Made by a program: the position numbers and the translations under genes. Of a stretch of DNA of 64,000 nucleotides, positions 8,970 to 63,649 are shown piece by piece. Position 1 is the first letter of the stretch; each line of letters opens with the position of its first letter. The notes under the pieces were generated by a model. The model saw only the letters and a list, made by a program, of their open reading frames with translations, searched no databases and was not told where the DNA came from. This stretch comes from Linum tenue (taxonomy: Eukaryota > Streptophyta > Magnoliopsida > Malpighiales > Linaceae), in contig CAMGYJ010000008.1 of assembly GCA_946122785.1 (NCBI GenBank), forward strand, positions 18,749,475-18,813,474, in the 5' to 3' direction.

Positions 8970-10888
8970 CTATTCATTATTAGAAGGACTACTATTGCCA
9001 CCGAAGACAATAATCCGCTGGAAAATATCTCCATGATTTCCCTCATCTATCAAAGAATAATTTTTCGGACTACTGTTGTAACGTTTCAATGATGGAGGAT
9101 CGTAATCAACTCTCTCCTGGTCGTTTATGACGGTAACTTGGATGCCATAGCAATCATAATCGAGCCTCTGAGCTACAGGCACATAACCAGCACCCATCTG
9201 CGGAGGAGCAACTCCCGCTGGACTATAAACTTCTCCTCCCCAATCTATGTAATTCGCAAAGCTCGACAGTCCCGTGAATATCTTCTGTGGCCAGGTTCCA
9301 ACGGTTGCATTAATGATTCCTATTTGTAGAAACCAATTTCCGTTTGCGGGATCCTTCAAGAAAACAAAAAAAAAAAACACAACTCTTAAGTTTTGTCTTT
9401 GAGAAAAACTCGATGCTTCACAAATGATTATTCATAGATCATTATATGATAATATCTACCTTGCGTACGAACACCTTCTTTTCGTATGTTGTTTTCCCGG
9501 GTGTAGAGTATGGTTTGAGAAGCAAATCCAGAGGTATGTCTGTCCTCAGGATTATAAATCCGGGGCAGTAGGTGTTATAACAATTCGAATTCTTGGTCTT
9601 GATCACAAGAAGGGGAAAATCAGTTGCATATGAGTGAACTTTCTTTCTCATATATAAATGGGCGAGGAAAAATCATAAGCCTTTGCTGATTTTTTTTTTA
9701 ATAATTCTTCTCATTAAACAAAACTTACAGTTGTGTATATGAAGAGTCGAGTCCCACCATCCGGGTATAAGCTTGGATTAACCTAGGCACACATAAATAC
9801 ATGAGTATTTAAGATTTTAATTGCATCATGACACAAAATAACAGACTAAATTATCGATGGTGTTTGTACGGTTTACAAATTTATTAATGACACCACAAGT
9901 ACTTACCGTCCATCCTACCGCAATACTGTCAGGACCGTTTTGAAATTTGACACGACTGGCACTGTATTGAGTTTTTCCAACTTGAGGATGGTACACACTA
10001 GTTATCATTCCACCTCCATAATATCTTTTTGACTCTTGTGTCCGGAGGATAGCAAACTGTATACAGGAACATTTTCAGGTAACGAATTTAATTAAAAATG
10101 AATTGTGACTAGATCTACTGGCTAGAAAGCAGTCAAATCACTACATATTGAATTATGAACATAGTCATGTTTTGCTGTTTGAAAAAACCTAGGGAAAGTG
10201 TTGATAACTTACTTCACGACCACCTTGATTTGCATCTGTTGAAATATTGTGAGCTAGTTTAGCAGCCATGTTCGTTCTAATAAGCTCCTTTCGTTCCATT
10301 TTCCTTATTGGTACGGTGTTTGATGGGCATCCTTTACCATTTACCCATATATCAAATGGGTCGATGTCAGAAGCATCCATATCAACCTTTTGGCTTGAAG
10401 CCCGAGAAGGGATCATCTGCCAGAAAATTTAGAACATACAACTCGTCTCTTGAGCAATAAGTACTATATATATATATATATGAGATGAAAATTAACTAAG
10501 ATAGAGAAAATAATTGAGCATAAGACGATTTATTACACCATACTTGGAACTCATACTTTCGGTCCTTCAATAAAGGATGATCGAAGGCTGGTTGTTCGTA
10601 GAAATCCACACAGTCATATGTGTCACCGTATTTTGTCTGTTTTGAATCAAAGGAAAAAAAGAAATCAAGAAACTTAATTGTAAGATATGACGATGGAACT
10701 CCAAAAATACTAATGAGAGTTTTCTTGATTACCTGGATCGTAGTAACAGCGGGTTTGCTCAAACGTTTCAACTGCCTTCTCAAGTTTAGTTTCTCCGTTG
10801 CTGACAACTTGTGGCACCAAACTCCATAGTGGTCCAATGCAGTAAACCAAATCAGCGTCAAAACTATCACAGCAGCCCATGGCGCCAT
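8970..10888 (-). CDS. Secreted neprosin-domain protein, copy A (seven exons, 392 aa)
   Basis: Exons on the minus strand: 10,888-10,733, 10,636-10,544, 10,416-10,213, 10,056-9,907, 9,782-9,729, 9,597-9,460 and 9,353-8,970. All introns are phase 0 with GT-AG ends; exon 2 ends in A before GT instead of the usual G. Residues 1-25 form a signal peptide (hydrophobic VIVLTLIWFTAL), so the protein is probably secreted. Residues 45-90 match the neprosin activation peptide (DCVDFYEQPAFDHPLL), followed by GKGCPSNTVPIRK and the neprosin domain with CYNTYCPGF, DPANGNWFLQIG and DWGGEV. Neprosin of Nepenthes is a prolyl endopeptidase with two catalytic Glu residues 109 apart. Here the first position is Ala197 (SIAVGW) and the second is Glu306, so activity is doubtful. 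Sequons NIS, NAT and NSS suit secretion. It differs from copy B at about 17 residues. Confidence 0.9.
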
Positions 10889-10978
10889 ATCTACTGACGA
10901 GAGAGCGCCTTAGAACGAAAGCGAGAATGTGGTTATAATTTTCTCTAGACGAAGTTATTCTAGTACGTACGGACTTGC

Positions 10979-10992
10979 TAATATATATATAC
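10979..10992 (-). promoter_or_regulatory. TATA box region of gene A
   Basis: GTATATATATATTAGCAA on the minus strand, about 100 bp before the start codon. The same element with the same 3' context (TAGCAAATC or TAGCAAGTC) lies upstream of B and C. The mirrored 5' flank shared with B extends to 11,662. Confidence 0.6.
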
Positions 10993-11662
10993 AAAACCTT
11001 GTAGTAGGTAGAGAGACGAATTAAGGATGTCAAGAAAACAAATAATCGTATTAGGTTAACTATTTTGAGAGATGTGAAGATCTATTGGCTGGTTGTGATC
11101 GGAAAGAAAAGATGGTAGTGCAGTTACGTGACAACTGGAAATGAAAATATGGTAATTATATAAATGCATAGTGTAATCGCGTTCCCATTCCCTTATTCTT
11201 CTTACCTTTATTCGGGATTAAATGTCTTCCAATGGTAAGAATTATATTAAGTATAATAAGTAATAACTGATACTTTCTTTGCCGAAAAAATATGTCAGAT
11301 TCTCACAAACTTGCAAACAATATATACGTACTTAATTTTTGTTTCTAATAAGTTGGTGGTTTTCTTTATATATTGATTTGCACATAATTTTTTACTTTTT
11401 TTTTATTTTTTGTTTAAGCAGCTTTGAAGTTTGAATTGGTAATTTATAGGAAAGATGAATTTGGTCATGGACATGTCCGCTCAATGGCGGAGCCGGGAAT
11501 TTTATATAGAGGTTTCCTCTTTCAAAAATTAACTAAATAATTAAATAATTTTAAATTAGAAAATATCTAACTAATACAAGTTACAACAAAAGTCTATGGC
11601 GTGTTACAAAATATACTCAGTGTCTGGATGGCTCAACAAATATCTCCATCTAACTATACAAA

Positions 11663-12245
11663 CAGAGCTAGATGGAGGAATTGGGGATGGTCGATAGGAG
11701 GGATTGAAGAGACTGGTGGGGAAGATTGGAAGATTGGCCGACTATTTTTCACTAAGAGAGCTAGAGACTGGAGAAGAATGGAAGAGGGAGTTGGTGGTGC
11801 TCGTGGCGTTGATGTTTTTGTCGAAGGAAGGAGAAGAGGGGAAACAAGTGGATTGGACAGGTCGGCGGCAATAGCTTCTTCCGGTCGTCTTCTCTGGGCA
11901 AGGGATTTTGAGGATTGGTCAATTTTGAGTTTTAATTTGGGGTAGGTCAGATCATGGATTAATGGGTTCGGTCACATTGGTCAGGTTTTTATGATGTGGC
12001 AAGCTTTTATGACGTGGCAGGATTGAATTTTGTTTTATTTTTGTCAAAAATTAGTGACTAGTTGAGTCTGTTAGCCACGTCAGCAAATAATTGACGGTGT
12101 TAACGGAGACTGACGGAAGGTAACGGAGTGTGACCAAACTTGAACCATTTAACTAATTTGAGTGACCAAGATTGAATTTAAATATTTCTAGTGACCAAAC
12201 ATGAACGCTTTTTGTAATCTCAGTGACCAACCATGCAATTAACCC
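11663..12245 (+). repeat. Unclassified repeat beside the palindrome centre
   Basis: It begins just past the end of arm homology. Its first 130 bp recur inverted at 3,340-3,460. Its right part carries several copies of GTGACCAA(A/C)CATG and ends CAGTGACCAACCATGCAATTAACCC, a style of terminus common in plant DNA transposons. The open frame at 11,601-11,945 is composition-driven and shows no domain. Confidence 0.5.
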
Positions 12246-14900: not shown

Positions 14901-15248
14901 GGCCAAGGTGAAGTTCTTAAACATTTACACACCATATTTGCTCGCGTGTTATGACTTTGATGTTGAGCAAACCAAAACGGAGTTAATTATCATTCCATTT
15001 GGTGATAACAGTGACGGCGATGGACATGGGCGCACCTATAATGAAGGATGAGGATGAGCACGACACTGACGATGAGTAAAGATAAGGAATCTTTTACGCT
15101 AGCAAGAAATTTACATTTCGATAATTTCAACGACCTAGATTTTTGTAAACTAACAAAACAGGCGAAACTCATGCTACTCCTATTTACACGATTCACAAAT
15201 GAACCCGACATTGATACCTATTTAGTATTTATACAATTTGGAAATGAA

Positions 15249-15277: not shown

Positions 15278-16130
15278 TTTAATAGTAAAAATGATATTCC
15301 TTCTCCCAATTATTTTAAAAATCTAACAATTGAACCTGATTACGGGTTATCCTTATTCCCTCCATTCTATCATATCCATTGGTTTACTTGCTTCTCAAAG
15401 TAATTGATTTTACCGATTGCAACTGCAGGTGTTGAAATAACATATTTAGTTTGTGAATGTTTGTACAGTAAGATGGAGATATTTGTTGAGCCATCCAGAC
15501 ACTGAGTATATTTTATAACACGCCGTAGACTTTTGTTGTAACTTGTATTAGTTAGATATTTTCTAATTTAAAATTATTTAAATATTTATTTAATTTTTGA
15601 AAGAGGAAACCTCTATATAAAATTCCCGGCTCCGCCATTGAGCGGACATGTCCATGACCAAATTCATCTTTCCTATAAATTACCTATTCAAACTTCAAAG
15701 CTGCTTAAACAAAAAAAAAATAAAAAAGTAAACAATTATTTGCAAATCAATATATAAAGAAAACGACCAACTTATTAGAAACAAAAATTAAGTACGTATA
15801 TATTGTTTGCAAGTTTGTGAGAATCTGACATATTTTTTCGGCAAAGAAAGTATCAGTTATTACTTATTATACTTAATATAATTCTTACCATTGGAAGACA
15901 TTTAATCCCGAATAAAGGTAAGAAGAATAAGGGAATGGGAACGCGATTACACTATGCATTTATATAATTACCATATTTTCATTTCCATTTGTCACGTAAC
16001 TGCACTATCATCTTTTCTTTCCGATCACAACCAGCCAATAGATCTTCACATCTCTCAAAATAGTTAACTTAATACGATGATTTGTTTTCTTGACATCCTT
16101 AATTCGTCTCTCTACTTACTACAAGGTTTT

Positions 16131-16142
16131 GTATATATATTA
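16131..16142 (+). promoter_or_regulatory. TATA box region of gene B
   Basis: GTATATATATTAGCAAATCC, 104 bp before the start codon, matching A and C. The 776 bp from 15,459 to the ATG mirror the upstream region of A, so the two genes probably began with the same promoter. Confidence 0.6.
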
Positions 16143-16234
16143 GCAAATCCGTAAGTACTAGAATTACTTCGTCTAGAGAAAATTATAACCACATTCTCAC
16201 TTTCGTTCTATAAGGCGCTCTCTCGTCAGTAGAT

Positions 16235-18155
16235 ATGGCGCCATGGACCGCTATGGTAGTTCTGACACTGATGTGGTTTACTGCCTTGGACCATTATGGA
16301 GTTTGGTGCCACAAGTTGTCAGCAACGGAGAAACTAAACTTGAGAAGGCAGCTGAAACGTTTGAGCAAACCCGCTGTTACTACGATCCAGGTAATCAAGA
16401 AAACTCTCATTTAGTATTTTTGGAGTTCCATCGTCATATCTTACAATTAAGTTTCTTGATTTCCTTTTTTCCTTTTGATTCAAAACAGACAAAATACGGC
16501 GACACATATGACTGTGTGGATTTCTACGAACAACCAGCCTTCGATCATCCTTTATTGAAGGACCGAAAGTATGAGTTCCAGGTATGGTGTAATAAATCGT
16601 CTTATGCTCAACTATTTTCTCTATCTTAGTTAATTTTCATCTCATATATATATAGTACTTATTGCTCAAGAGACGAGTTGTATGTTCTAAATTTTCTTGT
16701 AGATGAGTCCTTCTCAGGCTTCAACCCAAAAGGTTGATACGGATGCTTCTGGCATCGACCCATTTGATATATGGGTAAATGGTAAAGGATGCCCATCAAA
16801 CACCGTGCCAATAAGGAAAATGGAACGAAAGGAGCTAATTAGGACGAACATGGCTGCTAAACTAGCTCACAATATTTCAACAGATGCAAATCAAGATGGT
16901 CGTGAAGTAAGTTATCAACACTTTCCCTAGGTTTTATCAAAGAGCAAAACATGACTATGTTCATAATTCAATATGTAGTGCTTTGACTGCTTTCTAGCCT
17001 GTAGATCTAGTCACAATTCAATTTTAATTAAATTCGTTACCTGAAAATGTTCCTGTATACAGTTTGCTATCCTCCGGACACAAGAGTCAAAAAGATATTA
17101 TGGAGGTGGAATGATAACTAGTGTGTACCATCCTCAAGTTGGAAAAACTCAATACAGTGCCAGTCGTGTCAAATTTCAAAACGGTCCTGATAGTATTGCG
17201 GTAGGATGGACGGTAAGTACTTGTGGTATCATTAATAAATTTGTAACAATCGTACAAATGCCATTGATAATTTAGTCTGTTATTTTGTGTCATGATGCAA
17301 TTAAAATCTTAAATACTCATGTATTTATGTGTGCCTAGGTTAATCCAAGCTTATACCCGGATGGTGGGACTCGACTCTTCATATACACAACTGTAAGTTT
17401 TGTTTAATGAGTAGAATTATTAAAAAAACAAATCAGCAAAGGCTTATGATTTTTCCTCGCCCATTTGTATATGAGAAAGAAAGTTCACTCATATGCGATT
17501 GATTTTCCCCTTCTTTTGATCAAGACCAAGAATTCGCAATGTTATAACACCTACTGCCCCGGATTTATAATCCTGAGGACAGATATACCTCTGGATTTGC
17601 TTCTCAAACCATACTCTACACCCGGGAAAACAACATACGAAAAGAAGCTGTTCGTACGCAAGGTAGATAATTATCATATAATGATCTATGAATAATCATT
17701 TGTGAAGCATCGAGTTTTTCTCAAAGACAAAACTTAAGAGTTGTGTTTTTTTTTTGTTTTTTTTCTTGAAGGATCCCGCAAACGGAAATTGGTTTCTACA
17801 AATAGGAATCATTAATGCAACCGTTGGAACCTGGCCACAGAAGATATTCACGGGACTGTCGAGCTTTGCGAATTACATAGATTGGGGAGGAGAAGTTTAT
17901 AGTCCAGCGGGAGTTGCTCCTCCGCAGATGGGTGCTGGTTATGTGCCTGTAGCTCAGAGGCTCGATTATGATTGCTATGGCATCCAAGTTACCGTCATAA
18001 ACGACCAGGAGAGAGTTGATTACGATCCTCCATCACTGAAACGTTTCAACAGTAGTCCGAAAAATTATTCTTTGATAGATGAGGGAAATCGTGGAGATGT
18101 TTTACAGCGGATTATTATCTTCGGTGGCAATAGTAGTCCTTCTAATAATGAATAG
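16235..18155 (+). CDS. Secreted neprosin-domain protein, copy B (seven exons, 392 aa)
   Basis: Exons: 16,235-16,390, 16,489-16,581, 16,703-16,906, 17,063-17,212, 17,339-17,392, 17,525-17,662 and 17,772-18,155. All introns are phase 0 and GT-AG. The start ATG is the one that keeps the signal peptide (MAPWTAMVVLTLMWFTALDH) and aligns with A and C. Activation peptide at about 45-90 (CVDFYEQPAFDHPLLKDRKY), then GCPSNTVPIRK and the neprosin beta-sandwich domain (YYGGG, CYNTYCPGF, NWFLQIG, DWGGEV, CYGIQV). Ala197 replaces the expected first catalytic Glu and Glu306 is kept. The gene is head-to-head with A across 5.3 kb and sits in the mirrored arm. Exons 2, 4 and 5 encode the same peptide as in A; changes cluster in exons 1, 3 and 7. 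No frame lesion is seen, so it is probably expressed. Confidence 0.9.
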
Positions 18156-18212
18156 ATTTTTGAAGCACTCATAATAAGTTGTCGATCTGCTTATTGTTCT
18201 CTTTGCTGAAAT

Positions 18213-18218
18213 AATAAA
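18213..18218 (+). terminator. Poly(A) signal of gene B
   Basis: AATAAA 58 bp after the stop codon, in the same context as in A and C. Confidence 0.7.
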
Positions 18219-18825
18219 AGACTCCACGGTTTTTTGGCTTTTGACCTATGTGTGCATGTTCAATTATGATTGAGAAACTTAATTATACTATTGCACCTAC
18301 ACTAAAAAATGGTCTTCTTTTTTCTTCTCCTGGTCAGAGATGTCTTTTTTTTTCTTCTCCCTATGAGGGAAAGGGAACGAGGACGGATCTATTTGTTTTA
18401 TGTTATGGATTAGAGGTGTTCAAATGGTTACTATCGTAATTACCAAATCAAATAAGACTAAATTCTATTAATCATGTAATACAATATTACAATCATGCCG
18501 ATTTAAAAAAAACAATTTTATTAATTTCACTTTTCCTAGATCTAAAGCCAAGCTTAAAATGGTTTACCGGGAGAGATTGTTTTGACAGTACTGGTGTAGT
18601 CAAGTTAGAGTTAAATATAGGTGCATTTCACTACAAAAAAATGGACTTATGCCAAGGGTTTTGTAGCAAGGGTTATGGAACCCTTGCTACTCTTAAATCA
18701 AATTTCACCGAAACGCAAAGCATCCATGTTTTCCCTTTCGCATTTTTCATTTTTTGTAGCAAGGTAAAGGGTGATTTCGACTGAAGGGTGATTCGCGACT
18801 TAAGGCATCTCCGACTGAAGGGGCG

Positions 18826-25546: not shown

Positions 25547-25759
25547 AGGTTTAGGGTTCACATTTTGGGATTTTGTGTTGGTGTTCAAAATTGAAGGTTT
25601 AGGGGTTTAGGTAATTGATTGATTAGTTGTGATCCTTTATTATATCATCATATTATACTAGTGTTACCAGTTAAAATTCAACATTTGATGTCTATCGCTA
25701 ACTTTAGAGTTGGATGCATTGAATGCACCCAAAAAAACGAGTGCACCGATGTAGCCACC
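25547..25759. mobile_element. Truncated right-arm copy of the Mutator-type MITE
   Basis: Mirror of 7,090-7,302, ending GTAGCCACC followed by ATATAATAT, the complement of the left arm's target duplication. The other half of the MITE is missing, lost together with the counterpart of 7,303-8,474. From 25,760 to 26,020 the sequence mirrors 6,840-7,089 and holds no gene. Confidence 0.85.
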
Positions 25760-26019
25760 ATATAATATAGATAAGATATATAGTAAATTACTTAACTAGT
25801 TAATTTGATTTGATTGGTTATGAGTGTCTGAAACCAAACCACCTAAACCAAACAAGCTAAAAATTTTAACCAAACCAATTAACCAAAATAACCAAACTAA
25901 ACTATCCATATATTACCGGTTAAAACGGTTACCAGGGTAACCACTTCGTTTAAACACCCCCTACTGACTAGATAGATAGAGTTTGTTGTGTCCTTGCGAC
26001 AAAGATAGAGTTCAATATA

Positions 26020-26710
26020 GATATTACAAGACACTGAGTAACCAGACGCGACAGTAAACAAAAATTCGAACTGTCGATGAAAGGGAATTAGAAGCCACTA
26101 AGTGGGCAGCCCTCTTATACAATCTAGGAGTAAAAGAACAAGAAAAAGAAATGAAGCCATGGGCCGCTAACTGAATCTCCTCCAAGATGTGTTTGCTGGC
26201 GCTGTGAGAAGAATCTTGCTCTCGAACTCACCGGATCAGTGTTTGGCAATCACCACATAAGTTCACAATAAAAAAAATCATGCATTAGACACCAATTAAC
26301 AGCATCTCTTAAGGCCAATAATTCCATTGTGAAAGCATCTGTGATACCTGGATAATGTACCAACTGCAAAATTCAACTCCCCAGATGTTGTGAAAACCAC
26401 AAAGCCAATATCCCCACCCTGGCCTTTCTTCCAAGCCCCATCAAAACATACAAGAATACCTTCATCCGGGCATGTATCTCCACACCAAGGTTAAGTGTTG
26501 GATTGTTCGTCGGATGCCACAAGAGCATCTTGTCTCACCGTCCCTTGCTGCAATGTCCAGGGGGAAGTAGCCGATTCCCATTCTGCCACTTGAGCTCTGA
26601 ATTGCCTAAGAAGAGCAGGACCGCGATATTGAATGCGTTTATGCACCGCCCAACACTAGGACTTCAACACTGGCCAACAAAGAAACACAAAAAATGACAG
26701 GAGAAGTGAC
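26020..26710 (-). pseudogene. Decayed LINE-type RNase H domain (right-arm copy)
   Basis: Mirror copy of 6,141-6,826 with the same RNase H-like motifs and its own small differences (for example in the stretch before ILEEIQLAA, at about 26,200). Non-functional. Confidence 0.7.
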
Positions 26711-29384
26711 TCGTCCCAAATATGACACTAAAAATCCCAATTAAGGCCCAAGTATAAACCTTAATTGGATGCAATATAAGGCAAGTATGTTTAAATGTCA
26801 ACCCGGGCCGGTCCATCTACCCCTACTTCAATTGTTTGAAACATTATCTAGCGGTTGGTTTTTGGTGAAAACTACGATCTAAGGTTAAATTGATTAGGAA
26901 AGTAAATGGGTTTGACTCTAGTTGAGAAGGCTTCACCCAGGTGTTGCTCCCCCTAGCTAACAATCATGATTTGTCGGATCGAATGCTCATCTGTGGTAAA
27001 TGCAACTAGTGAACAAACATCACTCTCTCGGTCGATAAGCCAAGGGAATCCGATTCAAGCTACCAAGGTAGCTCTATTGGCCTATCGACTAAGGATTACC
27101 TACTTCACCCTCGAATTGGAGTTCGGACGGCCAAATTACAACTAACCCAAGGTGCTAGTACGAAATAAGAGGTTTTCCCTAATTCAACCTAATTAGGTTA
27201 CATGAATTGCCCAAGGAAATCTAGCTTTTACCAACCTCTTCAAAAAGGAGATTTAACTCTACCTAGGTTAAAATGGCATAAGACATTGAAATGCACAAAC
27301 ATGCTCAATCATCATGAAAATACCTCATAACCTTGTATTAAAACACACCCACACATCAAACATTCAATCCAGACAACATTCTCATAATTGTAGCTAGAGT
27401 TTACAAACACCTAAGTGAAAAAATGATCTAATCCATGCTAGGAAAAGGGGAAAACACAAGAGAAAAGAAGGAAAACCATCTTGGAGATTGATAACGATGT
27501 ATTTGCACATGTTTACACCCTTATTTCTTATCCGTTTGTGGCTCGTAGTCGTGTATCTTTGGCCTATTTTACACTGGGTTGTGCTATTTTTTCACATTTA
27601 AGGTCTCAAGCGTTGAAGGAAGGGCTAGGCACGAATTTCAGGGCGTTTGGAGGTCTTCAGTGAAGCTGGGGCAAAACACGGGCAGACTACTCCAGAACAC
27701 GGCCGTGTTCACTAAGGGGCACACCAGTACTTTTTAGTGCGCGAGCTGAATCGATGCAAGGAGAAAACATGGGCGCCATTGACAAAAAACACGGTCGTGT
27801 CCCCTGCCCGTGTTATTTATGCCAAGAGCTCTTTGGTGACTGTTGCTGAGGAATCCAAAGCACGGGCGCAGCTGTTCTGAAACACAGTCCTGTCACTCCT
27901 AGGACATGCCCATGTTTTACTCGACGCGAGCATGTACTTCCCCACATGAGGACAGAACACGGGCGGACAAAGTTAAACACGGCCGTGTCCTTGACCGTGT
28001 TTCTCCCAGAATCGAGATAAATGAGGTAGATTCGAGCCAAAGGTGGGAGATTTGACTTTTTAGAGCAAAAACAGAGTCCTAGAGAGAGAAAGTGCGAACA
28101 ACAAACCCTAGGGTTGATTTTGGAGCTGGGTTTCATCAATCAAGCTTGGATTTCATACTTGGAGGGAAGATTGACACCCCAGAGCTGATCATTTCCATCT
28201 TTATGAGTATGAATGCTTTGAATTCTGTTTTCCTCTCTCTCTCTCTCTCTTTCTCTCTCTCTATGGAGTAGACCTTTCTCTCACTTGGGTATGAAGAACC
28301 CTAGTTCCATGTGTTAGGGATCTTGATTGAAATGACTTTTGGATTGAGACATTGTTTGATTATAATCGATTGAGGTGTGTTTATTGAGTCAATTGAATCC
28401 TGATCAACTTCTCTTGATTCCTGCATCAACCTTTGATAGATAGAATCTGAATAGGTTGTTAGAGCTTCTTCAATCGGTAGTAGTGAATTGATTATACAAG
28501 AGTTAATCGATTCACTGCTTTGCACTGGAATCCAATTCTAGTAGTGGAGTTCTGTGTTAATTGCCTCAGTAGACTATCACGGTGACGGCTAGTCGCCTGC
28601 CGGTTAGTCTGTCTGAGAGGGCTTGGTCAGCTTAAGAGATTCCAAGCTACTGTCGGATCTTCCGCAGCTTAATCAACAATAAATCAACCAAAGGAAATTA
28701 CAACTTCGACCTAACTAAGGAGCTAGGGGATTCAGTCCCGAGTGACTCTTCTCTTGCTTTTGAAAACCGAACAATTTCCTGCTTTCTTACTGCTTTTTCT
28801 TCCAATCACTCTCACTAAACCGAGTCCCTCTAGATAATAGCTACTCGCGGAATAGGCTATGTATTTTCATATGTGGTTATGTATTTTTCGAGTCGGGGCA
28901 CGAATGTGGTTTGGTTGTTTGAAATCGTGATTTTGAGATTGTACAGAGGCAGCCTCAACAGTAAAAACACGGGCGCCTGGGGTTGAAAACACGGCCGTGT
29001 TTCTTCCCCTGTCCGCCCGTGTTTTGCCATTAACACTGCACAACCTCGCACTAAAAAACACGGGCGCCATGGGTTGAAAACAAGGTCGTGTTTTGATCCC
29101 TGTCCACCCGTGTTTTGAAATAAGGGAGAAAAACGCCTCGGACTGGTCTGGTCCCCTTCCAGTCTCCTGCTCTTGACTGGTCTGCCTTCCAGTCACCATT
29201 CCCGCTCATCATTTCCTGGTAACATCGTTCCCCTTCCCTCTGCTCCATTGAGGGCAATGTCGAACTTAAGTGTGTGTGCGTGTTGGGGGGGGGGTGCTTT
29301 GTCTTTATTGGAACGTATATGTGTATGCTTGGAGCCTAGTCCGGTGTCCAAATCTCGAGATTTGAGGGCTCCAAGCACTGATGT
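26711..29384 (+). mobile_element. Gypsy (Athila-like) LTR and noncoding internal DNA, right arm
   Basis: 26,711-27,488 mirrors 5,529-6,140. The LTR begins TGATAACGATGTATTTGCAC at 27,489 and runs to about 28,857. 28,858-29,384 is internal-type DNA with a (GT)n/(G)11 run at 29,268-29,295. The LINE at 29,397 is inserted here, and the same element resumes at 37,398. There is no gag or pol, so it is a deletion derivative. Confidence 0.7.
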
Positions 29385-29680
29385 TTGCATGATCATTTTT
29401 TTATGAAGGTGATAACTGCATTAAATTAAAGTAAAAAGAAGAGTCTGAAGGCCACACAAGAGGTGCAGCCCACCAACCCAACAGGTCCAACGACAACGGT
29501 TTAAAATGTGGGAAAACAACCCACAACCAAAAAGAAAAAACAACAGGCAGAAAGAAAGAAACAGACTAAGTCGGCATGGCGACCCTAGACCATCCCCTGA
29601 AACAATCCCAAAACCATCCGAGAGCACACCAAAAAATGGCAGAACGAAAAACAAGTCACAAAGCATAAGGAGACCACAGG

Positions 29681-32422
29681 TCATCGAGATCTTAAGCTCG
29701 CCATCCACTCCCATCCTTGCTCCCTACAAATCTTGCCATGAGCAACCAACCTATCCAAAATTAAGGCAATGGACTTCTGGAAAACGGAATCAGGGTCGAG
29801 ACATTGATCTCTAAATATGCGCTGGTTTCTTTCATTCCAAACCTGCCAACAAATCACATGGAGATCACCATAAATAACCCAATCCTTCAAATTATCCGGA
29901 TTTTGGCTATTCCATCTCCTAATGGTTGTTAAGATGTCGCCACCGGGAGGGGTGAGATTGCTGCAGCTGCTACCAACCGCGCTCCAAATTTGCTTGGTGT
30001 AGGCACAGTCAATGAACAAGTGATTGACGGTTTCCTCCGCTCTATGGCACAAGGAGCATCTATTGGCCAGGGACCATCCTCTCCTCTAAAGATTGTCCAA
30101 GGTATGAATTTTCTTGTGCGCCACCAGCCACATGAAAGCTCGAATCTTGGGAGGGACATCACTACGCCAAACAGAATCATCCGGGAAATCAAGCATGCCA
30201 GGGCAGCTTCTGCTAATGAAATGCCTGTACAAAAGATGGACACAGAGCACACAGTCTGGATTTGCATACCAGACCAACTTACTTGGCCCGAAGGGGACCA
30301 GATTAGGAACAACAGAATTAATAAGATTATAAAAGTTGGATCTCTCACTCTCGGCTCCCCCTCTCAAAGGAATATTAAGTTCAATGTTCCAATCTGTATG
30401 CGTACTTGTGGTGTTAGCGAGGTCTGAAACCCAGGCATCAGGCATGGCAGCAGCGGCAGCGACTCTTGGGAAAGTTTCAGCTAAAATCGGGTTTGGAACC
30501 CAACAGTCCCTCCAAAACGACACCCAAGCACCACTCCCCGGATCGATATGACAGACCTTCCAAAAAGACTCATATTCTTTCGTAATATTGGCCCAAACCG
30601 ACCCTACATATCCACTCCTGCATCTTTTGCTCTGCCAATCAGATTCATACGGGTATTTCTTGGAGATTAACTCTCGCCACCAACTTCCTCTATCGTTAGC
30701 ATATTTCCACAACCATTTAGATAGGAGTGCCTTATTAAAGCAGCTTAAATCTTTGACTCCGAGCCCCCAATCTCCTTCAGAGCCTTGCAAAGTTCCCATT
30801 TAACAAGCGGTATCTTACGCTCTTCCCTCGCCCCACACCAAATAAACCTTCTCTGAATTATTTCCATTTTCTGCACTGCTCCTCTAGGAGCATGAAACAA
30901 TGAGAAGTAATAGACCGGTTGACTCGACAAGACTTCATTGTTCAGAACCAAACGAACCCCAAGCGAGAGATAATGTCCTTTCCATTCTGCAAGGCGCTTT
31001 TTGAATTTCTCTATAATTGGATCCCATATAGCACTCAAGTTGACCTTAGCCCCGAGAGGGAACCCTAGGTATTTCGTGGCATCTCTTGTCCAATCACACC
31101 CAAAAACAGCAGCGAAATATTCTGGATTTGGGACATCACCAACAGCAATCATAACCGATTTCTCAAGATTAATCTTGAGGCCTGTGATAGCTTGGAAACA
31201 GACAAGATTAGCAAGGATATTCAGAACTTGTTCCATGGATGCATCGCAAAGGATCAAAGTGTCATCAGCGAACAACATATGAGTGACCTCCCCAAACCCA
31301 CTTAACTCATCCATACAGAATCCCCTCAATTTTCCCTCCTCATTAAGCTTGGACAGCATAAACGAGAGAACCTCCATAATTAGCACGAACAATCCCGGCG
31401 ATAGCGGGTCCCCCTAACGAAGACCCTTCTCCGTTTTAAAGAACCCTTTGGCTTCTCCGTTAATAATTGTTGAGATAACCAGCAAGCACATTGTCCCACG
31501 AATCCACTCACACCATTTCCTTGGGAGACCCAAAGCCGAGAGGACTTTAAATAGACAACTCCAACTCACACTGTCGAATGCCCGCTCGATATCAAGCTTG
31601 AACATTAATCTTGGTTACTGTCTTTTCTTTCTTCTGTCCAGGAGCTCAAAGGCTATGAGGTCGGCCTCCGAGATCTGCCTACCATGAACCGAAGCTTGCT
31701 GGGATGGAGAAACCAGTTTCGGGAGCACCAAACGGAGCCTTCGAGCCAATATCTTACTGATAAGTTTGTTCAGACTCCCCATCAAGCTTATGGGCCTAAG
31801 GTTCTTGATGTCCTCAACCGCATCTCTCTTAGGGACTAGGCACAAGAAAGAATGTGTGGCGCACAGCGGTAAAGTGCCCGAATTGTGGAACTCAAGCAAA
31901 GCATTCTGGATCTCGATACGAATAGAGGGCCAGCACTTCTTATAGAAGTCCCCCAAAAAGCCGTCAGGACCCGGTGCTTCCCACCCATCATTATCTCTAA
32001 GACTCACCCAAGCTTCAGTTTATGAGAAAATCATAACAAGAGTATTAGCTTCAGCATTACTCAACATGTTCTCCCCAAAATCCCCCGGGAAAGGACGCTT
32101 AGCAACAGCTTCTTTGAAGAAAGATATATAAAAATCAACCACCCCTTTAGCCAAGTCCTCCCTGCCTTTAAACCTCACACCTTGAATGTTTATGCATTCA
32201 ACCATATTAAACTTCTTCTTAAAATTAGCCATCACGTGGAAAAACCAGGTATTATCATCCCCAAACTTCAGCCAGTGTTCCTTCGCTTTCTGCCTCCAAA
32301 AGATTTCCTGAAGAAAAAGAAGTCTGCTCAACTCCATCTTTACCCCTGTCGATCCATTACCTCATTATTATTCAAGATTCTAGATTCCTCAGTCGAGTCC
32401 AAATCCTTAATCCTAGACAACA
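29681..32422 (-). pseudogene. LINE ORF2, reverse transcriptase to zinc-finger part
   Basis: In order on the minus strand: linker (SRLLFLQEIFWRQKAKEHWL), the start of RT (GPDGFLGDFYKKCWPSI; LVPKRDAVEDIKNLRPISLM), FKLDIERAFDSVSW, HMLFADDTLIL (catalytic FADD), KYLGFPLGAKV, and the zf-RVT region (SLCHRAEETVNHLFIDCAYT). The reading frame changes several times, for example near 32,015, 31,610, 31,400, 30,750 and 30,085, with stops. The parent enzyme primes reverse transcription at a nicked target. Confidence 0.85.
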
Positions 32423-34075
32423 TCTACACATAATATAATACACCGAAGGGAAAAACCGGAGCCCCATTTCAAATTTCCTGCAACGAGAGTGAAAGTAGGG
32501 AGGACATTTTGGTCTTCACAATTACTTTTTTAATTCATTAAAAAGACACGTATTGGGATTCGAACCATGACCATTTTAAAGAAAAGCAAGGATCATAACC
32601 AATCACATTAAGTACATTTGTTGTATCTTTTTAAATTAAAAATATATAATAGCAGGGAGGAAAAAACCCTTCCCCCATTTCAAATTTCCTGCTCCAGGAG
32701 CGTTTGTAGGAAAGTTAGAATAGGGAGTGTCAACTTTTTTCTCTTTCCTCTGTGGAACGGGCCAACTTACCGTACACATGCTGATTTAAACGGGTCCAGG
32801 AGTGTCAATTTTTTTCTTTAAGCCCTTTTATTTCTCCGTGGTGATAAAATATATATGAAAAGACAAAAACAATACTCCTTTTTATTGCTAAAAATAAAGA
32901 ATTTAACAATAAACTAATGCATGATATCTAATGGGCTAACCGCTATCCATAAAATAAAATAGTTGAATGGGTCTGACCTACACGGGATTTGGCCATCAAG
33001 TAAAACAAATGAACATCATTGGCTTGCCATTCTAAAACAAGCTATTTTCTCTGGCATAATATATATTATGCTATTATTATATCTTAGTGGCTAAAATATA
33101 ATGTATTTTAAAGTTATTCAATGGTTCAACCTCGACCAACCTAATTAGTCCAATTTTTATCATTTCAAATATATATTATGTAATTATTTGATATCATAAT
33201 GATCAAATTATATTGTATTTTATAGGCAATCGTTTAGTATTTATTAGTAAAAAACTAAATAAAACGATCTATTTGGTTATTTTAAACATTAAAACGATCC
33301 TAAATATTTTCAGTTCCTTTTGAATTTTTATGGTTTTATTCCCGAATAAGTGATGTGTAAATGGCGAATTGCAGTCATCTCTTTTCTTTCACTATTTTTT
33401 ATTTTCAAATAGAAAGTTTAAAAGTAAAGAATAATTAGAATTTGGCATGGGTCGGTCAAACAGGCTGAATTTCAAGTTTTGGCCCATTTTGATCAAGTCT
33501 AATTTATAATCACATGGTTCCCTGATACCCGATAAAAATCTCAATCCAAACCAGTTTGGCAGGTGAGTCCGTGTTTACCACCATTTTCTAGGGATACGAC
33601 AACGGCGGTTCCTATCCCAAATCGTGTTGTTCGTTATTGATTTCCTTAGATTTTATCATGGCCTAACAAAAACCAAAAAGCACAATGACGACAAGATGAA
33701 AGTTTTATAAAGCAAATTAATCGACCAACGGGCCGAGTAAAAGCTAGCAACGATTGTGAGATGCTCATTTCCCGAAAACCGACGGGATAGGCGATTTTTT
33801 ATTCAATTTTCTGGAATTCGGTTTCTATAAAACTTACTCCACCTCATCATATTACCAGAAACAATATTGTTTCACAAGGTAACATGTACTTGATTTTGGT
33901 TCATAAGGCCAATTTTAGATTTATTGCATCATTCATGTCTCTTTCCTGCTAAAATTCACTATTTTTATCACGTGTTTCCCAAAAAAAACTATACAACAAT
34001 AAGCTATACACCCCATTACATTATCAAATTTCATACCTCACCTTCCTCTAGCCAACTGGCCGGGGCCCACACTAG
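32423..34075 (+). mobile_element. Helitron, 1,653 bp, inserted in LINE ORF2
   Basis: It starts TCTACACATAATATAATACA at 32,423 and ends GGCCGGGGCCCACACTAG at 34,075, flanked by A on the left and T on the right. Removing it joins the LINE ORF2 frame smoothly (INTHIEA then MLSRIKDL), so both ends are supported by the host sequence. No target duplication, as expected. A second Helitron-like end (GGGCCGAGTAAAAGCTAG, 33,747) lies inside. The element is non-autonomous with no protein; AT-rich throughout. Confidence 0.92.
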
Positions 34076-48285: not shown

Positions 48286-51200
48286 TGTTAGACAGTATCA
48301 AAACACTCAATAGCTTTATACGAAAACGAAGAAGAAAACTCGACACACGATTTACGTGGTTTCCCCGATATCGGGACTAGTCCACGGGAGAGCTAGAACT
48401 CTCCGAGCTGATCGTCTTATTAGTTTTCTTAGTTTGATTACAAGACCCTTGCTGTACATAAATACTACCACCTAACCCTAGCTCACTCAAGTTCTCGCTA
48501 GGGCTAGTTTCTGCGGCTACACCCAATTACACTCGACATACTATACAACAATGGGCTAGAAGCCCAAATCCACTAACAGCCTCCCCCAAATTGATGCTGG
48601 TCCCGAAGCATCAATTTGTCAGACAGTAACATATGACGAGAACGAGGAAAAGGCTTTGTGAATAAATCGGCGAGCTGATCAGCGGAAGTGACATGACGAA
48701 CTATAAGAAACCCCTCCTGCACAAGATCACGTACATAATGAACATGAACTTCAATGTGTTTGGTCCGATCATGGAGAACGGGATTAACGGCGATCTGGAT
48801 AGCACTAGTGTTATCGACGTGCAGAGTAATCGGAGACGGACACGAGACTCCCAAGTCAAGAAGAAGACGTTGCATCCAAACCAACTCTGAAGCAACATCA
48901 GACATAGCTCTATGCTCCGCTTCAGTAGAAGACTTGGAAACTTTATCTTGTTTCCTACACCGCCAGTTGACAAAGGTCCCACCAAACTGAACGCACCAAC
49001 CCGTAGTAGATCGACGGGTATCTACACAACCAGCATAATCGGAATCCGAATAAGCCTGTAAACGTAAATCACCGGTAGCAGGAAGAAACAAACCAACCTC
49101 CCGAGTGCCCTGTAAGTAGCGTAGTATCCGATGAACTGCAGACAAGTGATCCACCCTGGGATCAGCCATAAACTGACTTACTACATGAACAGCAAAGGAA
49201 ATGTCCGGTCGAGTGTGGGTCAAGTAAATCAAACTGCCAACTATGTGTCGATACTGAGAAGGATTAACCACAGTGACCCCTGACTCACGTCCAAGATGCA
49301 AATTAGCCTCCATTGGGGTGGTGACGGGAAGACAATCACCAAATTGTGTCGAAGAGAGCAAATCCATAATGTATTTTCGTTGGCTTAAGAGAATACCGCG
49401 CGGTGAGCGAGTGATCTCTAAACCTAGAAAATATGATAGCTTGCCCAGCTCCTTGAGTGTAAACGAAGCATGGAGGCCGGCCTTGAGTTGAGTAATACCA
49501 TTAGCATCATCACCTGTGATAATCATATCGTCCACGTACAGGAGGAGAGCAATAATTCCCGCAACCGATGTCTTCAAGAACAAAGAAGGATCATTGCGAC
49601 TTTGCTGAAATCCAAGAGCCAAGACTGTAGACTGAAATTTCTCAAACCAAGCCCGAGGTGCTTGTTTGAGACCATAAAGTGACCGCTGAAGACGACATAC
49701 CTGATCCTCCCTGCCAACTGTGTATCCCGGCGGGCGTCTCATGTATACTACCTCCTTCAAATCGTCGTGGAGGAAAGCATTTTTGACGTCGAGTTGAAAC
49801 AAAGGCCATCCACGAATAGCTGCAACAGCTAAGAGGGTCCGTACCGTCTGCATTTTAGCAACGGGTGCAAATGTCTCGTCGTAATCGAGACCATATTCCT
49901 GGCCAAATCCTTGTACCACCAGCCTGGCACGAAACCTCTCCAAACTGCCATCCGCCCTTACTTTCACTGCATAAACCCATCGGTTGCCCAAAATTGTAAC
50001 TGGTTCGGGAGGGCGATCCACTACCACCCACGTACCCGTAGCATGCAATGCGTCAAATTCAGTTTGCATGGCCTTATTCCAGTTGGGATCTAGCATAGCC
50101 TGCTTATATGACGTGGGAATAGTAAATGCTTCAACATGGTAGGAAACAAAGTCATTATAGCGAATTGGTGGCTGGCCTTTTGTTGTGCGAAGTGACCGTC
50201 TAGGAGCTGGTGGCGATGACGGTGGGGAGGGAGAGCCTGGTGAGTCCGAACTGCTGGATGCCGAGCTGCTGGAGGATGAAGCTGGAGAATTATCACCCGG
50301 CGAAGATGGGGCAGGCGAGTCGGGGGGAGTGTGAGGTCATCGGCCACCTCATCATCGTCGTCAAACACGGGCAGTCGGGTCACCTCAGACACGAAGGAAG
50401 ATTCTTCCGAAGGGCTCGAGAAAAACATGAGACGCTCAAAGAATACCACATCACAGGAAATACGAAGACGTTGGAGAGACGGATAATAACACAGGTATCC
50501 CTTATGGATGTCACTATAACCGAGAAACACACATCGGGACGTTTTCGAGGACAACTTAGACCTTTCTATTCGAGGAAGAAGAACAAAACAAGTACACCCA
50601 AACACCTTTAACCGAGAGTAATCAGGATGCTTTTTGAATAGAACATAGTGGGGACTAAGCTGACCAAGAACGGGGGTAATTTGATAGTTGATCAGACGAA
50701 CGGCAGTAGCCACAGCTTCTAGCCAAAAACGAGCTGGAACATGGGAAGCTAACAACATGGCTCTAGTGAGTTCAACTACATGACGATTCTTTCTTTCGAC
50801 AAGATCATTTTGCTGAGATACACCGGGACACGATTTCTGAGTTAAAATTCCCTGAGATCGAAACAGACTAGCTAAAGGATGAGAGCTGAATTCCCCGCCC
50901 GGATCTGAACGAACTACACGAACTGTCTGACCAAACTGAGTGTGAATCATTTTCAAAAAATCTGTGGCAACAGAGAGAAGATCAGATTTAAGACGAAGGA
51001 AATAGACCCAAGTAAAACGAGTGGCATGATCCACGAATAATGCAAAGTATTTGTAACCATGACGGGAGTCGGTAGGCGACGGGCCCCAGAGATCCGTGTG
51101 AACAATTTGGAATGGATCAATAATTACCGTAGTGCTAGAGGGAAAAGAACTACGAGTGGCTTTAGCTTCAACACAGCTCGTACACTGAAAATTGCCCGAA

Positions 51201-53141
51201 GAAATATCAACCTTTTTATTGCCGAAAAGTTGTTGTTTAAACATGGTCACAAGCCGACTCGAATGAGGGTGACCTAAACGAGAATGCCACAAATCAAACT
51301 CACTAGTGTTTAAACTCGAAAAAACAGGAGGGACTGTAGATGCCCGAGACTCGACTATGGAAGATGACCGAGATGGAGGTTGACCCGACAATTCTTCAAG
51401 CTGGAACACACGCCCATGTTTACTCCCCCTTCCGATCTGCCTCCCCATCGTCAGATCCTAAACCACACACCCCGAGGGGTCGAACACCACACGACAATTT
51501 TGCTCAGTCAGTTGACGAACAGAAACAAGATTAGGCACAAGATTCGGAACACATAAAGTACGAGATAATGTCAAGCGAGGTTCAAAAACATCACCAACAC
51601 CCTTAATAGACAAACGTTGGCCATTTGCAACTTGAATAGAACCAGACTCCGTCGAATTCAAATTCTTAAACGTTTTAGAGTTACCCGTCATATGGTTAAA
51701 GCATGCAGAATCTAACAACCACGGAGGGGAGATACCTGCATTGTGAAGAGTTGCGAATGCGCTGGTGATGGCAGTAGGTAGCGAGCGTTGCAATGCTGAG
51801 TGGACGAGCTGTTCCACTGCCTCCGCAGTCATGTACTGCCCTGGAGAAGGTGCGGCAGCAGCAGCTGCAGCAACCGCTGGCTGGGCAGCATAAGCACCAC
51901 CAGTGGGAGGGGCTGCATGGGTCGACGATCCGCTAGACGAACGTGGCTGAATTAATCGGCCGTCCGTGATAATGTGGCCCTTCTTTTTACAATACACGCA
52001 AAAATTTCGTTGCTTACAGAACTTTTGTAAATGACCCGGCTGACGACAGTGATGACATATAACCTCGGACATGCGACGTTGAAAAGGAGGGCGACCCACA
52101 GCAAAAGCTTCATCGCTGTCTATCTGAACAGGTCCGTTCCTGGGAGCCGAACCACCAGCAGCCTTGTGACCCAATACCGCGAACACTGCTTTGCCAGCTC
52201 CGGGACGTAGATCCAGCTGAGCTTGCGTTCGGAGACGGGTTTCTTCCCGGACAAGAGTAGCAAGGACACCATCAATTTTCAGACCATCTCGTTGCAGTAA
52301 ACTAGCACGCACAGATTCAAAGTCGGGCTTAAGCCGACTAAGAAATTGCATCAGACGAGTACGCTGTCGATCTTGAAGTACATCCGCAGAAGCTTGAGCG
52401 GAACTCAATTGTGCTGTTAATAAATCTTCTTCGATCCACAATAATTGCGCCTCATTGTAATACGAGGTCACATCCAGATCGCCTTGTTCAAGACGTGCCA
52501 ACTTAAATTGAATTTCAAATTGCCGAGCAGGATCGGCCGTAGTATAGGTACGCGCGAGATGTATCCATATATCTCTCGTCGTCTGTAGCATACGGAGACC
52601 AAGACAAATCGTGGGATCAATGGTGTTGAGGAGATAAAATTTCACCTTGGCATCCGTTTGATTCCACTTAGCCAATTCTTCAGGAGACGAAGGCGGCACC
52701 GTAGGCCGCTGTGACGTACCGTCCAGAAAAGAAAGAAAGCCTTTTCCTTCGATGAAAATCCGAAACTGGAACTCCCATAATGCATAGTTCTTGGAGTTCA
52801 AACGAACCGCAACCCTGTCCGAATCCAAAGACGAAAGCTCTGATACCATGTTAGACAGTATCAAAACACTCAATAGCTTTATACGAAAACGAAGAAGAAA
52901 ACTCGACACACGATTTACGTGGTTTCCCTGATATCGGGACTAGTCCACGGGAGAGCTAGAACTCTCCGAGCTGATCGTCTTATTAGTTTTCTTAGTTTGA
53001 TTACAAGACCCTTGTTGTACATAAATACTACCACCTAACCCTAGCTCACTCAAGTTCTCGCTAGGGCTAGTTTCTGCGGCTACACCCAATTACACTCGAC
53101 ATACTATACAACAATGGGCTAGAAGCCCAAATCCACTAACA
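48286..53141 (-). mobile_element. Copia (Ty1) retrotransposon, complete but mutated, 4,856 bp
   Basis: LTRs at 48,286-48,578 and 52,849-53,141 (293 bp each, TGTTAG...CTAACA) differ at only two positions that I can see. TSD ATTTC at 48,281-48,285 and 53,142-53,146. Primer site TGGTATCAGAGC follows the 5' LTR, and TTTGGGGGAGGC (polypurine tract) precedes the 3' LTR. The Gag-Pol order protease, integrase, reverse transcriptase, RNase H is Copia-type. It lies inside the small LTR element at 47,536-53,728. Confidence 0.97.
48573..52849 (-). pseudogene. Copia Gag-Pol polyprotein, with one stop and one frameshift
   Basis: The start ATG spans the LTR end and primer site at 52,849 (MVSELSSLDSDRVAV). 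Gag: UBN2-type region, zinc knuckle CHHCRQPGHLQKFC, and a second knuckle-like CVYCKKKGHIITDG that lacks its last Cys. Protease: WLLDSACFNHMTG, where DSGA is usual. A TAG stop at 51,458-51,460 follows DPSGCVV. Integrase: LWHSRLGHPHSSRL, HTDLWGPSP, VRSDPGGEF, ERKNRHVVE. A frameshift sits at a C6 run (50,322-50,327). Reverse transcriptase: FAPVAKMQTVRTLLA, QLDVKNAFLHDDL, LLLYVDDMIITG. RNase H: QAYSDSDYAGC, SSTEAEHRAM, TKHIEVHVHYVRD. It cannot make full Pol without readthrough and frameshifting, but could be mobilised in trans. Confidence 0.93.
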
Positions 53142-57125: not shown

Positions 57126-57133
57126 CATATCAA

Positions 57134-61021: not shown

Positions 61022-61380
61022 TATTATACCTATACCAAAAAAAATCTAAGTACCGTATACATTGTTTTCATGCTTGTGAGGATTTGACATATTTTTTCGA
61101 CAAAGAAAGTATCAGTTATTATAATTAATATTGAACTTTAATCCCAAATAAAGGTAAGAAAAATAAGGGATCGGAATTCGGAACACGATTACAGTAAGTA
61201 TCTGTATAATTACCATATTTTCATTTCCAGCTGTCACGTAACTGCACTATCATCTTTTCTTTCCTTTCACAACCAGCCAATAGATCTTCACATCTCTCAA
61301 AATAGTTAATTTAATTACTACGATGATTTTTTATATATCTTGACATCCTTCGTCTCGTCTCTGTACCTACTACGAGGTGT

Positions 61381-61392
61381 GTATATATATTA
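61381..61392 (+). promoter_or_regulatory. TATA box region of gene C
   Basis: GTATATATATTAGCAAATC, 123 bp before the start codon, as in A and B. Proximal homology with B runs from 61,046 to the gene. Everything farther upstream is separated by the MITE plus Helitron. Confidence 0.6.
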
Positions 61393-61503
61393 GCAAATCT
61401 ATACATAATACAATTATTTCGTCTAGAGAAAATTATAATCACATTCTCGTTTTCGTTCTAAGACGCTCTCTCGAACCAATACGATCGAGTTCTGCAGGTA
61501 GAT

Positions 61504-63649
61504 ATGACATCACGGACCGCTATGATCATAGTTCTGACGCTGATGTGGTTTGCTGCATTGGACCATTGTGGAGTTTGGTGCCACAAGTTGTCAGGAACCG
61601 AGAAACTAAACTTGAGAAGGCAGTTGAAACGTTTGAGCAAACCCGCTGTCACTACGATCCAGGTAATAAAAAAAAACCCTATTTTCATGAATAAGTATAA
61701 AGAAAACTCTCATTAGTACTTTTAAGTTTTTTTTCCTGATATTTATGGATTCTGGGGATGATTTAAAGTCAATCACGAGGTTAATTGCTGGAATTTTCCA
61801 AGTTAAAATTAACGATAGTATCGATGGACCAAACTTTGAGAGGGTAGAGAAGCGTATTCTGGAGTTTGAAATGTGTGATTAAGTTTACTGATTTCTTTTT
61901 TCTTTGATTCAAAACAGACAAAATACGGTGACACATATGACTGTGTGGATTTCTACGAACAACCAGCCTTCGATCATCCTTTATTGAAGGATCGAAAGTA
62001 TGAGTTCCAGGTACGCGGTGCATTAAGTTTATGCTCAACTAAATTCTCTATCTTAGTTAATTTTTCATCGCATATATAGAGTACCTATTGCTAAGAACCA
62101 ACACGAGTTGTATGTATGTTCTAAATATTCTTGCAGATGAGCTCTTCTCGAGCTTCAAACCAAAAGGTTAATATTGATGGTTCTGGCATCGACCCATTTG
62201 ATATATGGGTAAACGGTAAAGGATGTCCATCAAACACCGTACCAATAAGGAAAATGAAACCAAAGGAGCTTATTAAAGCCAACATGGCTGCTAAGCTAGC
62301 ATATAATATTTCAGCAGATTCAAGCCAAGGTATCCATGAGGTAATTAAGTTACCAAAAATTTTCCTTTGAAAACAACACTCTATGTAATCTACTTTGTGA
62401 TTGATAATTTAGCTCTTGTCATCAACATGATCTGGTTTTATCAAGCAGCGGAATATAGCTATGTGATCAGTTTGATATGTTCTAATTTCTAGCTTGTACT
62501 CCGTCACAATTAGTATTACTTAACTCATACGTAAACATGTTTATGTGTACAGTTTGCAATCCTCCAGACAACAGGGCAAAACAGATACTATGGAGGTGGA
62601 ATGATAGCTAGCGTATACAATCCTCAAGTTGAAAAAACTCAATACAGTTCTAGTCGTGTCAAGTTTCAAAATGGTCCGGACAGTATTGCGGTAGGATGGA
62701 CGGTAAGTACTTGTACTATCATCCTTAGTTGTCATTATAACTAAGATTTGTGGGTAATAACAATCCTACCAACTGTCGTTGATGTATTATTTTGTGTCAT
62801 GATGTGATTTCTTTCTTATGTATTCATCTAGGTTAATCCAAGCTTATACTCAGATGGTGAAACTCGACTCTTCATATACACAATTGTAAGTTTTATTTAA
62901 TGAGCAGAATGAAATAAAGCCAATGACTTATGATTTTTTTTTTATTACCCATTTATAAGAAAGGAGAATAGGCACTAATATGTGATTGGTTCCTCCTTCA
63001 TATGGTTATAAGACCAAGGATTCACAATGTTACAACACCTACTGTCCCGGATTTATACTCCTGACGGAAGATATACCTTTAGATTTGCTTCTTAAACCTT
63101 ATTCTACAGTCGGAGGTGCATCATTCGAAAAGAAGTTGTTCGTATACAAGGTAGATCATCCCATAATTTATGAAGTCATTTTTCATCAAGTGTCGAATTA
63201 TTCCTCGAAGATGAACGGATGGATTGTGTATTTTTTTTCTTCGTGTTTTCTTGAAGGATCCCGCAAACGGAAATTGGTTTCTACAAATTGGAAAGGACAA
63301 TATGACCGTTGGAACTTGGCCACAGAAGATATTCACGGGGTTATCGGACTCTGCAAACTATGTAGAATGGGGAGGTGAAGTTTATGGTCCAGTGGGAACT
63401 ACTCTTCCACCAATGGGTGCTAGTGCTCTGCCTACAAAGCATAGGCTCGATAGTGATTGCTATGGCATCCAGGTTACCGTCATAAACGACCAACAGGAAG
63501 TCGATTACGATCCTCCATCATTGAAACCTTACAACAGTAGTCCGAGAAACTACTATTTGTTAGATGAGGGAAATCATGGAGATGTTTTCCAGCGAATTAT
63601 TCTCTTTGGTGGCGTTAATGATTATCCTGTTAATGAAAATATATTGTGA
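61504..63649 (+). CDS. Secreted neprosin-domain protein, copy C (seven exons, 396 aa)
   Basis: Exons: 61,504-61,662, 61,918-62,010, 62,137-62,340, 62,553-62,702, 62,832-62,885, 63,013-63,150 and 63,257-63,649. All are phase 0 with GT-AG ends; exon lengths equal those of A and B except the first (+1 codon) and last (+3 residues). Signal peptide MTSRTAMIIVLTLMWFAALD. The activation peptide is identical in exon 2 to A and B, then GCPSNTVPIRK, CYNTYCPGF, NWFLQIG and EWGGEV. Ala198 (SIAVGW) stands at the expected first catalytic Glu and Glu307 is kept. Sequons NIS, NMT and NSS. It is more diverged from A and B than they are from each other, so the C split is older. Intron 1 (255 bp) is longer than in A and B. 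The distal promoter carries MITE and Helitron insertions. Confidence 0.9.

Follow-up and report, generated by a model that had tools for sequence, protein, structure and literature searches.

The window analyzed here, a 64,000-nucleotide stretch of the Linum tenue genome (contig CAMGYJ010000008.1, positions 18,749,475 to 18,813,474 of the forward strand), carries three neprosin-like genes, which we call A, B and C. We consider it highly likely that their products are secreted neprosin-family pseudo-peptidases that belong to an old clade and probably act by binding, with the pro-domain kept. The firm part of this explanation is the loss of neprosin-type catalysis, which the residues at the active-site positions make very probable.

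The active site of neprosin is dismantled in A, B and C

Neprosin uses Glu188 and Glu297 as its catalytic residues (PMC9343461). All three spliced Linum proteins contain the segments SIAVGW and WGGE, with an alanine at residue 197 (A and B) or 198 (C) and a glutamate at residue 306 or 307, respectively, 109 residues further on. A phmmer comparison of A with the PDB set DSIAVGW opposite NTIEAGW of neprosin (7zu8), which places the alanine at the Glu188 position. The original prediction, made from the DNA alone, that the first catalytic glutamate is missing from all three proteins was therefore correct. The 109-residue spacing on which it had relied is indeed present in each protein but is fortuitous, as the intervening alignment gaps of -3, +1 and +2 sum to zero.

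The prediction also understated the loss. When A is aligned with neprosin, Gln173 is replaced by Arg186, Trp175 by Lys188, Tyr136 by Phe152 and Glu188 by Ala197; Glu297 is retained as Glu306. Tyr214 is deleted along with its loop in A, B and C. At the tested neprosin positions B has the residues of A, as does C with numbering higher by one. Thus none of the three copies has the Glu188/Glu297 pair or the Gln173/Trp175 oxyanion hole of the glutamate-class prolyl endopeptidases. Mutagenesis of neprosin indicates what these changes might mean: the Q173A and W175A variants lose all activity, H134A, Y136A and Y214A lower it by approximately 80%, the E188Q and E188A zymogens fail to autoactivate, and mature E188Q is inactive (PMC9343461). 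Since Gln173 and Trp175 are each essential in neprosin and both are replaced, a working Linum site would not be expected even with Glu188 present. The His134 position is Arg150 in A and B. A gapped alignment had given Ile150 as its equivalent in C, an assignment that was dropped because the profile alignment and the ungapped GIHEF segment give His151; no conclusion is built on His134.

To look for a replacement for Glu188, we listed the residues of A that align with positions of the neprosin cleft: R150, F152, Y182, A184, R186, K188, S195, A197, T201, N203, F215, Y217, Y226, D302 and E306. The only acids among them are D302 (neprosin Glu293) and E306. The original prediction had named another glutamate in the catalytic position as the finding that would tell against it, and there is none among these aligned cleft positions. 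Its suggestion of an enzyme with changed chemistry gains no positive support, the same positions offering no second glutamate.

The loss is a property of a eudicot clade

We compared the best 120 of 165 matches to A with the best 120 of 3960 matches to neprosin; the two lists were chosen by similarity to opposite queries, which exaggerates the contrast between them. Gln173, Trp175, Glu188 and Glu297 occur together in none of the 120 relatives of A and in 113 of the 120 relatives of neprosin. Neither Trp175 (0/117 sequences with a residue at this position, versus 115/119) nor Tyr214 (0/120 versus 119/120) is found in any relative of A. Glu188 persists in 16/117 of those with a residue, compared to 118/119 near neprosin, and both glutamates are present in 11/120 and 117/120, respectively. 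The earlier statement that family members read SIEAGW at this segment is accurate for neprosin-near proteins as far as Glu188 is concerned, but not for A's own relatives. Nor is the feature particular to three copies; it belongs to a clade that spans many eudicot families and, among the sampled relatives, was seen only in eudicots.

The residues that took the place of the active site differ between lineages. Forty-eight of the best 120 relatives of A are from Linum. At position 188 they have Ala (37), Ser (8) or Val (2) in 47/47 sequences with a residue, the remaining one having a gap, so the alanine of A, B and C is not an isolated error. Position 173 is Arg in 45/47 Linum sequences with a residue, and position 175 varies (Lys 24, Val 10, Ile 8, Ser 5). 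Outside Linum the commonest residue at 188 is Gln. Within the window's clade Glu188 remains in Castanea, Quercus, some Ericaceae, Tripterygium, Dovyalis and one of two Melastoma rows; most remaining rows have Gln, with single instances of Lys, Thr and His, and Ile in Jatropha. Glu297 is replaced by Gln in Dovyalis and Eucalyptus, by Lys in Tripterygium, and by Val or Ser in 27/27 Solanaceae sequences with a residue, which have Gln at 188 in 25/27. Linum has thus lost Glu188, Dovyalis and Tripterygium have lost Glu297, and the Solanaceae have lost both. Arg173 was considered as a covarying partner of Glu297, an idea that finds no support, as 26/27 Solanaceae sequences keep it without that glutamate.

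Two trees were built by quick searches, with the Shimodaira-Hasegawa-like approximate likelihood ratio test (SH-aLRT) as the only support. Tree 1 contained 81 proteins (80 different) and omitted eight active-site columns, which were removed by column number and confirmed only through the number of columns kept. Tree 2 contained 87 domains, including odd sequences, with no columns dropped; its outgroup does not form one side of any branch, with one of three rows misplaced. The branch of Kalanchoe P0120 is very long in the trees. Tree 1 splits the relatives of A from those of neprosin (SH-aLRT 100) and implies that position 188 switched between Glu and another residue at least six times and position 297 at least four times. 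In Tree 2 the clade of the window's proteins still groups as one (38 rows, SH-aLRT 99), and Trp175 and Tyr214 are absent from every one of these rows. Because this loss is common to the whole clade, the alanine at 188 appears to have arisen late, when the site had already been dismantled. Read by parsimony, these trees most simply place the loss of Trp175 and the Tyr214 loop at the start, after which the glutamates would have been free to change.

Searching a third time, now with a mixed profile (best 120 of 3779 matches), added 103 proteins, many with fused tandem domains. The Gln-Trp-Glu set together with Glu297 is present in 80 of the 176 domain fragments of these proteins, many of the fragments being partial. 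Broken sites also occur in other lineages, for example in Aristolochia, Dioscorea, Carya and some Brassicaceae, and active-site loss has therefore probably occurred more than once in the neprosin family.

Several plants have two or three neprosin domains in tandem (P0241, P0251, P0252, P0257, P0264, P0265 and P0275). A canonical domain sits beside one with Gln or Lys in place of Glu297 in P0251 (Aristolochia), P0252 (Lithocarpus) and P0264 (Impatiens). Some of these tandem proteins may be gene-model fusions. P0047, a Linum perenne protein with the annotation Expansin-like B1, combines expansin and neprosin Pfam domains, possibly a fusion or a gene-model error.

The family fold is predicted to be intact and the genes are under constraint

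A matched both neprosin-family domains in Pfam (PF03080 and PF14365) above their curated cut-offs: Neprosin with an E-value of 2.4e-52 and 177.8 bits (cut-off 22), and Neprosin_AP with 3e-23 and 83 bits (cut-off 39.2). C gave 177.9 and 81 bits against the same cut-offs, and B, outside the Pfam scan, is placed in the family through its 95.7% identity to A. The Neprosin_AP pro-domain is matched nearly end to end in A and C. A high-confidence predicted model adopts the neprosin zymogen fold; lower-ranked structural matches include sugar hydrolases with the same jelly-roll fold. Cysteines, glycines and tryptophans conserved across the family are retained, among them the CYNxxC cysteines (residues 225 and 230 of A), and the N-terminus, judged by eye, is hydrophobic and signal-peptide-like.

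The test for purifying selection suggested with the original prediction gave ratios of nonsynonymous to synonymous substitution (dN/dS) below 1 for every pair. By the Nei-Gojobori method (NG86) dN/dS was 0.33 for A-B (bootstrap 0.16-0.60), 0.46 for A-C (0.34-0.68) and 0.40 for B-C (0.27-0.56); maximum likelihood (ML) gave 0.43, 0.70 and 0.55, respectively. For the catalytic domain of A-B alone the ratio was 0.77-0.82, a value derived from few changes. A, B and C are under constraint, though not strong, and the earlier description of them as conserved holds only to this modest degree. Together with the hydrophobic start, both Pfam domains and the modeled zymogen fold, these ratios support the earlier proposal of secreted pseudo-proteases with an intact fold: the catalytic motif is lost, the fold is predicted to be kept, and dN/dS is below 1 by bootstrap.

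The catalytic and pro-domains were also compared. Mean pairwise identity in 57 full-length non-Linum proteins of the clade is 0.470 for the catalytic domain and 0.594 for the pro-domain, compared to 0.528 and 0.556 in 105 canonical members, and the A-C NG86 dN is 0.158 and 0.068, respectively. Faster evolution of the former catalytic domain is not relied on here, as the two domains differ little in 12 Linum sequences (0.598 versus 0.602).

Comparison with known systems

Relative to Nepenthes neprosin (PDB 7zu8, 7zva, 7zvb and 7zvc), a glutamate-class prolyl endopeptidase, the Linum copies have Glu188, Gln173 and Trp175 replaced and the Tyr214 loop deleted. The eqolysins (G1), such as scytalidoglutamic peptidase SCP-B, use a Gln and Glu dyad (PMC9343461), and the Linum copies have Ala and Glu. 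An eqolysin-like enzyme would fit the 21 of 120 relatives of A that combine Gln188 with Glu297, but not A, B or C. Even in those relatives the likeness may be one of appearance, as neprosin E188Q is inactive (PMC9343461).

A closer parallel in domain content is LOTR1, an Arabidopsis Casparian-strip protein of the HOLO family which, in the excerpted text of PMC8794472, is likewise a secreted member of the neprosin family with two domains and paired cysteines. The same excerpts state that LOTR1 requires C255 and C260, which we take to be the same pair as the CYNxxC cysteines of the Linum copies, and that in functional lines it was detected at full length only, so that such a protein can apparently act uncleaved. 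Its authors counted 42 further two-domain members in Arabidopsis (PMC8794472, excerpts). The likeness drawn here is one of domains and cysteines, and need not extend to the role of LOTR1.

Pseudo-enzymes are known from many enzyme families (PMC10211241, excerpts). Among the open-licence PMC papers listed for neprosin, DUF239 and neprosin with pseudo-enzyme terms, none was recognized by title or start of abstract as describing a catalytically dead neprosin clade. Passages of PMC4969619, PMC6430479 and PMC13269764 likewise offered nothing on dead members. Plants have a large neprosin (DUF239) family, in which annotation as a protease is common. Our results suggest Gln173, Trp175, Glu188, Tyr214 and Glu297 as a simple sequence test for telling probable enzymes apart from a clade very probably unable to cut, which would be useful for annotation, for choosing glutenase candidates and for understanding the wall roles of such proteins. 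Linum, Dovyalis with Tripterygium, and the Solanaceae, each altered on a site already without Trp175 and Tyr214, offer a natural series from protease to non-enzyme.

Weighing the explanations

Several observations weigh against reading A, B and C as pseudo-peptidases. Mature neprosin E188A was never obtained, so alanine at position 188 has itself not been assayed (PMC9343461). The dN/dS ratios are only modestly low by either method, least so in the A-B catalytic domain. The LOTR1 study interprets the effect of mutating the cysteines as favoring a protease role for this class of proteins in Arabidopsis (PMC8794472, excerpts). Glu297 is kept in 48/48 Linum relatives, more than an idle site would suggest, although its place in the conserved WGG turn is another possible cause of its retention.

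The kept glutamate is also the mainstay of two explanations in which the proteins remain enzymes. Glu306 could act as general base or nucleophile and, with the new Arg186 and Lys188, form a different hydrolase or lyase. The consistent Glu297 of the Linum relatives, their nearly constant Arg at 173 and the restriction of 188 to Ala, Ser or Val favor such a changed chemistry, as does, weakly, the jelly-roll fold shared with sugar hydrolases, a fold that is widespread. However, position 175 takes four different residues within Linum, and the Solanaceae keep Arg173 without Glu297, so that no fixed new set of residues extends across the clade; we consider this explanation improbable. A weakened but real peptidase, in which Glu306 alone would cleave slowly with the help of water and other groups, would account for the retention of Glu297, the general base proposed for neprosin (PMC9343461, excerpts). 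It is very hard to reconcile with the inactivity of neprosin Q173A, W175A and E188Q (PMC9343461), since all three positions are altered here, and we regard it as extremely unlikely.

Catalytic loss is also compatible with duplicated genes that are decaying toward functionless pseudogenes, and the A/B inverted duplication, the nearby retrotransposons and the modest dN/dS are in keeping with this. Against decay stand the seven open exons with intact splice sites in all three copies, the bootstrap upper bounds on dN/dS (0.60, 0.68 and 0.56) and the retention of the family-conserved Cys, Gly and Trp residues, which together leave it quite unlikely.

We therefore favor non-catalytic proteins that bind, and propose the following mode of action. 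Trp175 and the Tyr214 loop would have gone before the sampled clade spread, followed by replacement of Gln173 by Arg in many lineages and of Glu188 by Gln in most and by Ala, Ser or Val in Linum; unlike the residues, clade and fold, this order is inferred from the trees. A cleft without the oxyanion hole, the ancillary tyrosine and the residue expected to bind the scissile carbonyl should not support the neprosin reaction. Nor should the protein be able to remove its own pro-domain, which, without self-activation, would be retained, as in LOTR1. The protein would be exported to the cell wall and act by binding along the former cleft, where one strand now has Arg and Lys in addition to the retained Glu306. 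The neprosin groove holds extended proline-rich peptides, which makes this cleft the natural place to seek binding; that the partners are wall proteins or peptides in extended form, perhaps rich in proline, is a guess. Whether the clade as a whole turned from zymogen proteases into non-catalytic secreted wall proteins, with the pro-domain made permanent, the glutamate pair dismantled differently in each lineage and the cleft freed as a binding groove, is in our judgment evenly balanced.

Gene structures and the duplicated locus

Positions of the three genes, their active-site codons and the A/B duplication in the window
Feature	Position	Strand	Details
Gene A, neprosin-like	8970..10888	-	7 exons, 392 amino acids; GT/AG phase-0 junctions, open frame
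Gene A exons	10733-10888, 10544-10636, 10213-10416, 9907-10056, 9729-9782, 9460-9597, 8970-9353	-	
Ala197 codon of A (GCG)	9919..9921	-	neprosin catalytic Glu188 position
Glu306 codon of A (GAA)	9231..9233	-	neprosin Glu297, kept
Gene B, neprosin-like	16235..18155	+	7 exons, 392 amino acids; GT/AG phase-0 junctions, open frame
Gene B exons	16235-16390, 16489-16581, 16703-16906, 17063-17212, 17339-17392, 17525-17662, 17772-18155	+	
Ala197 codon of B	17198..17200	+	Glu188 position; from exon coordinates
Glu306 codon of B	17892..17894	+	Glu297 position, kept; from exon coordinates
Gene C, neprosin-like	61504..63649	+	7 exons, 396 amino acids; GT/AG phase-0 junctions, open frame
Gene C exons	61504-61662, 61918-62010, 62137-62340, 62553-62702, 62832-62885, 63013-63150, 63257-63649	+	
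Ala198 codon of C	62688..62690	+	Glu188 position; from exon coordinates
Glu307 codon of C	63377..63379	+	Glu297 position, kept; from exon coordinates
Inverted duplication, left arm with gene A	8516..11664	-	pairs with 15458-18628
Inverted duplication, right arm with gene B	15458..18628	+	pairs with 8516-11664

The inverted duplication that carries A and B is approximately 3.2 kb long, with 95.9% DNA identity over 3182 aligned columns. C shares 79-80% identity with A and B. The deposited L. tenue protein P0002 matches the product of C exactly over 396 residues. A second deposited protein, P0003, equals C minus the 46 residues of exon 6 (63013-63150), which encodes the CYNxxC cysteines, and represents either annotated exon skipping or an annotation slip.

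A second inverted-repeat pair (3475-7302 with 25547-29551) encloses the A/B pair, and both are approximately 95-96% identical. This nesting suggests one large inverted duplication with arms at about 3.5-11.7 kb and 15.5-29.6 kb. The DNA between the repeats at about 18.6-25.5 kb is unmatched, and parts occur a third time at 38163-39146. Elsewhere in the window, a Ty1/copia-type retrotransposon lies at 48573-52939 on the minus strand, with gag, integrase and reverse transcriptase distributed across three open frames that overlap or abut. Two direct repeats, 48286-48578 and 52849-53141 (99.3% identical), may be parts of its long terminal repeats. The minus strand at 30086-34624 contains a remnant resembling a long interspersed nuclear element, with an RVT_1 match and sub-threshold zf-RVT and endonuclease matches.

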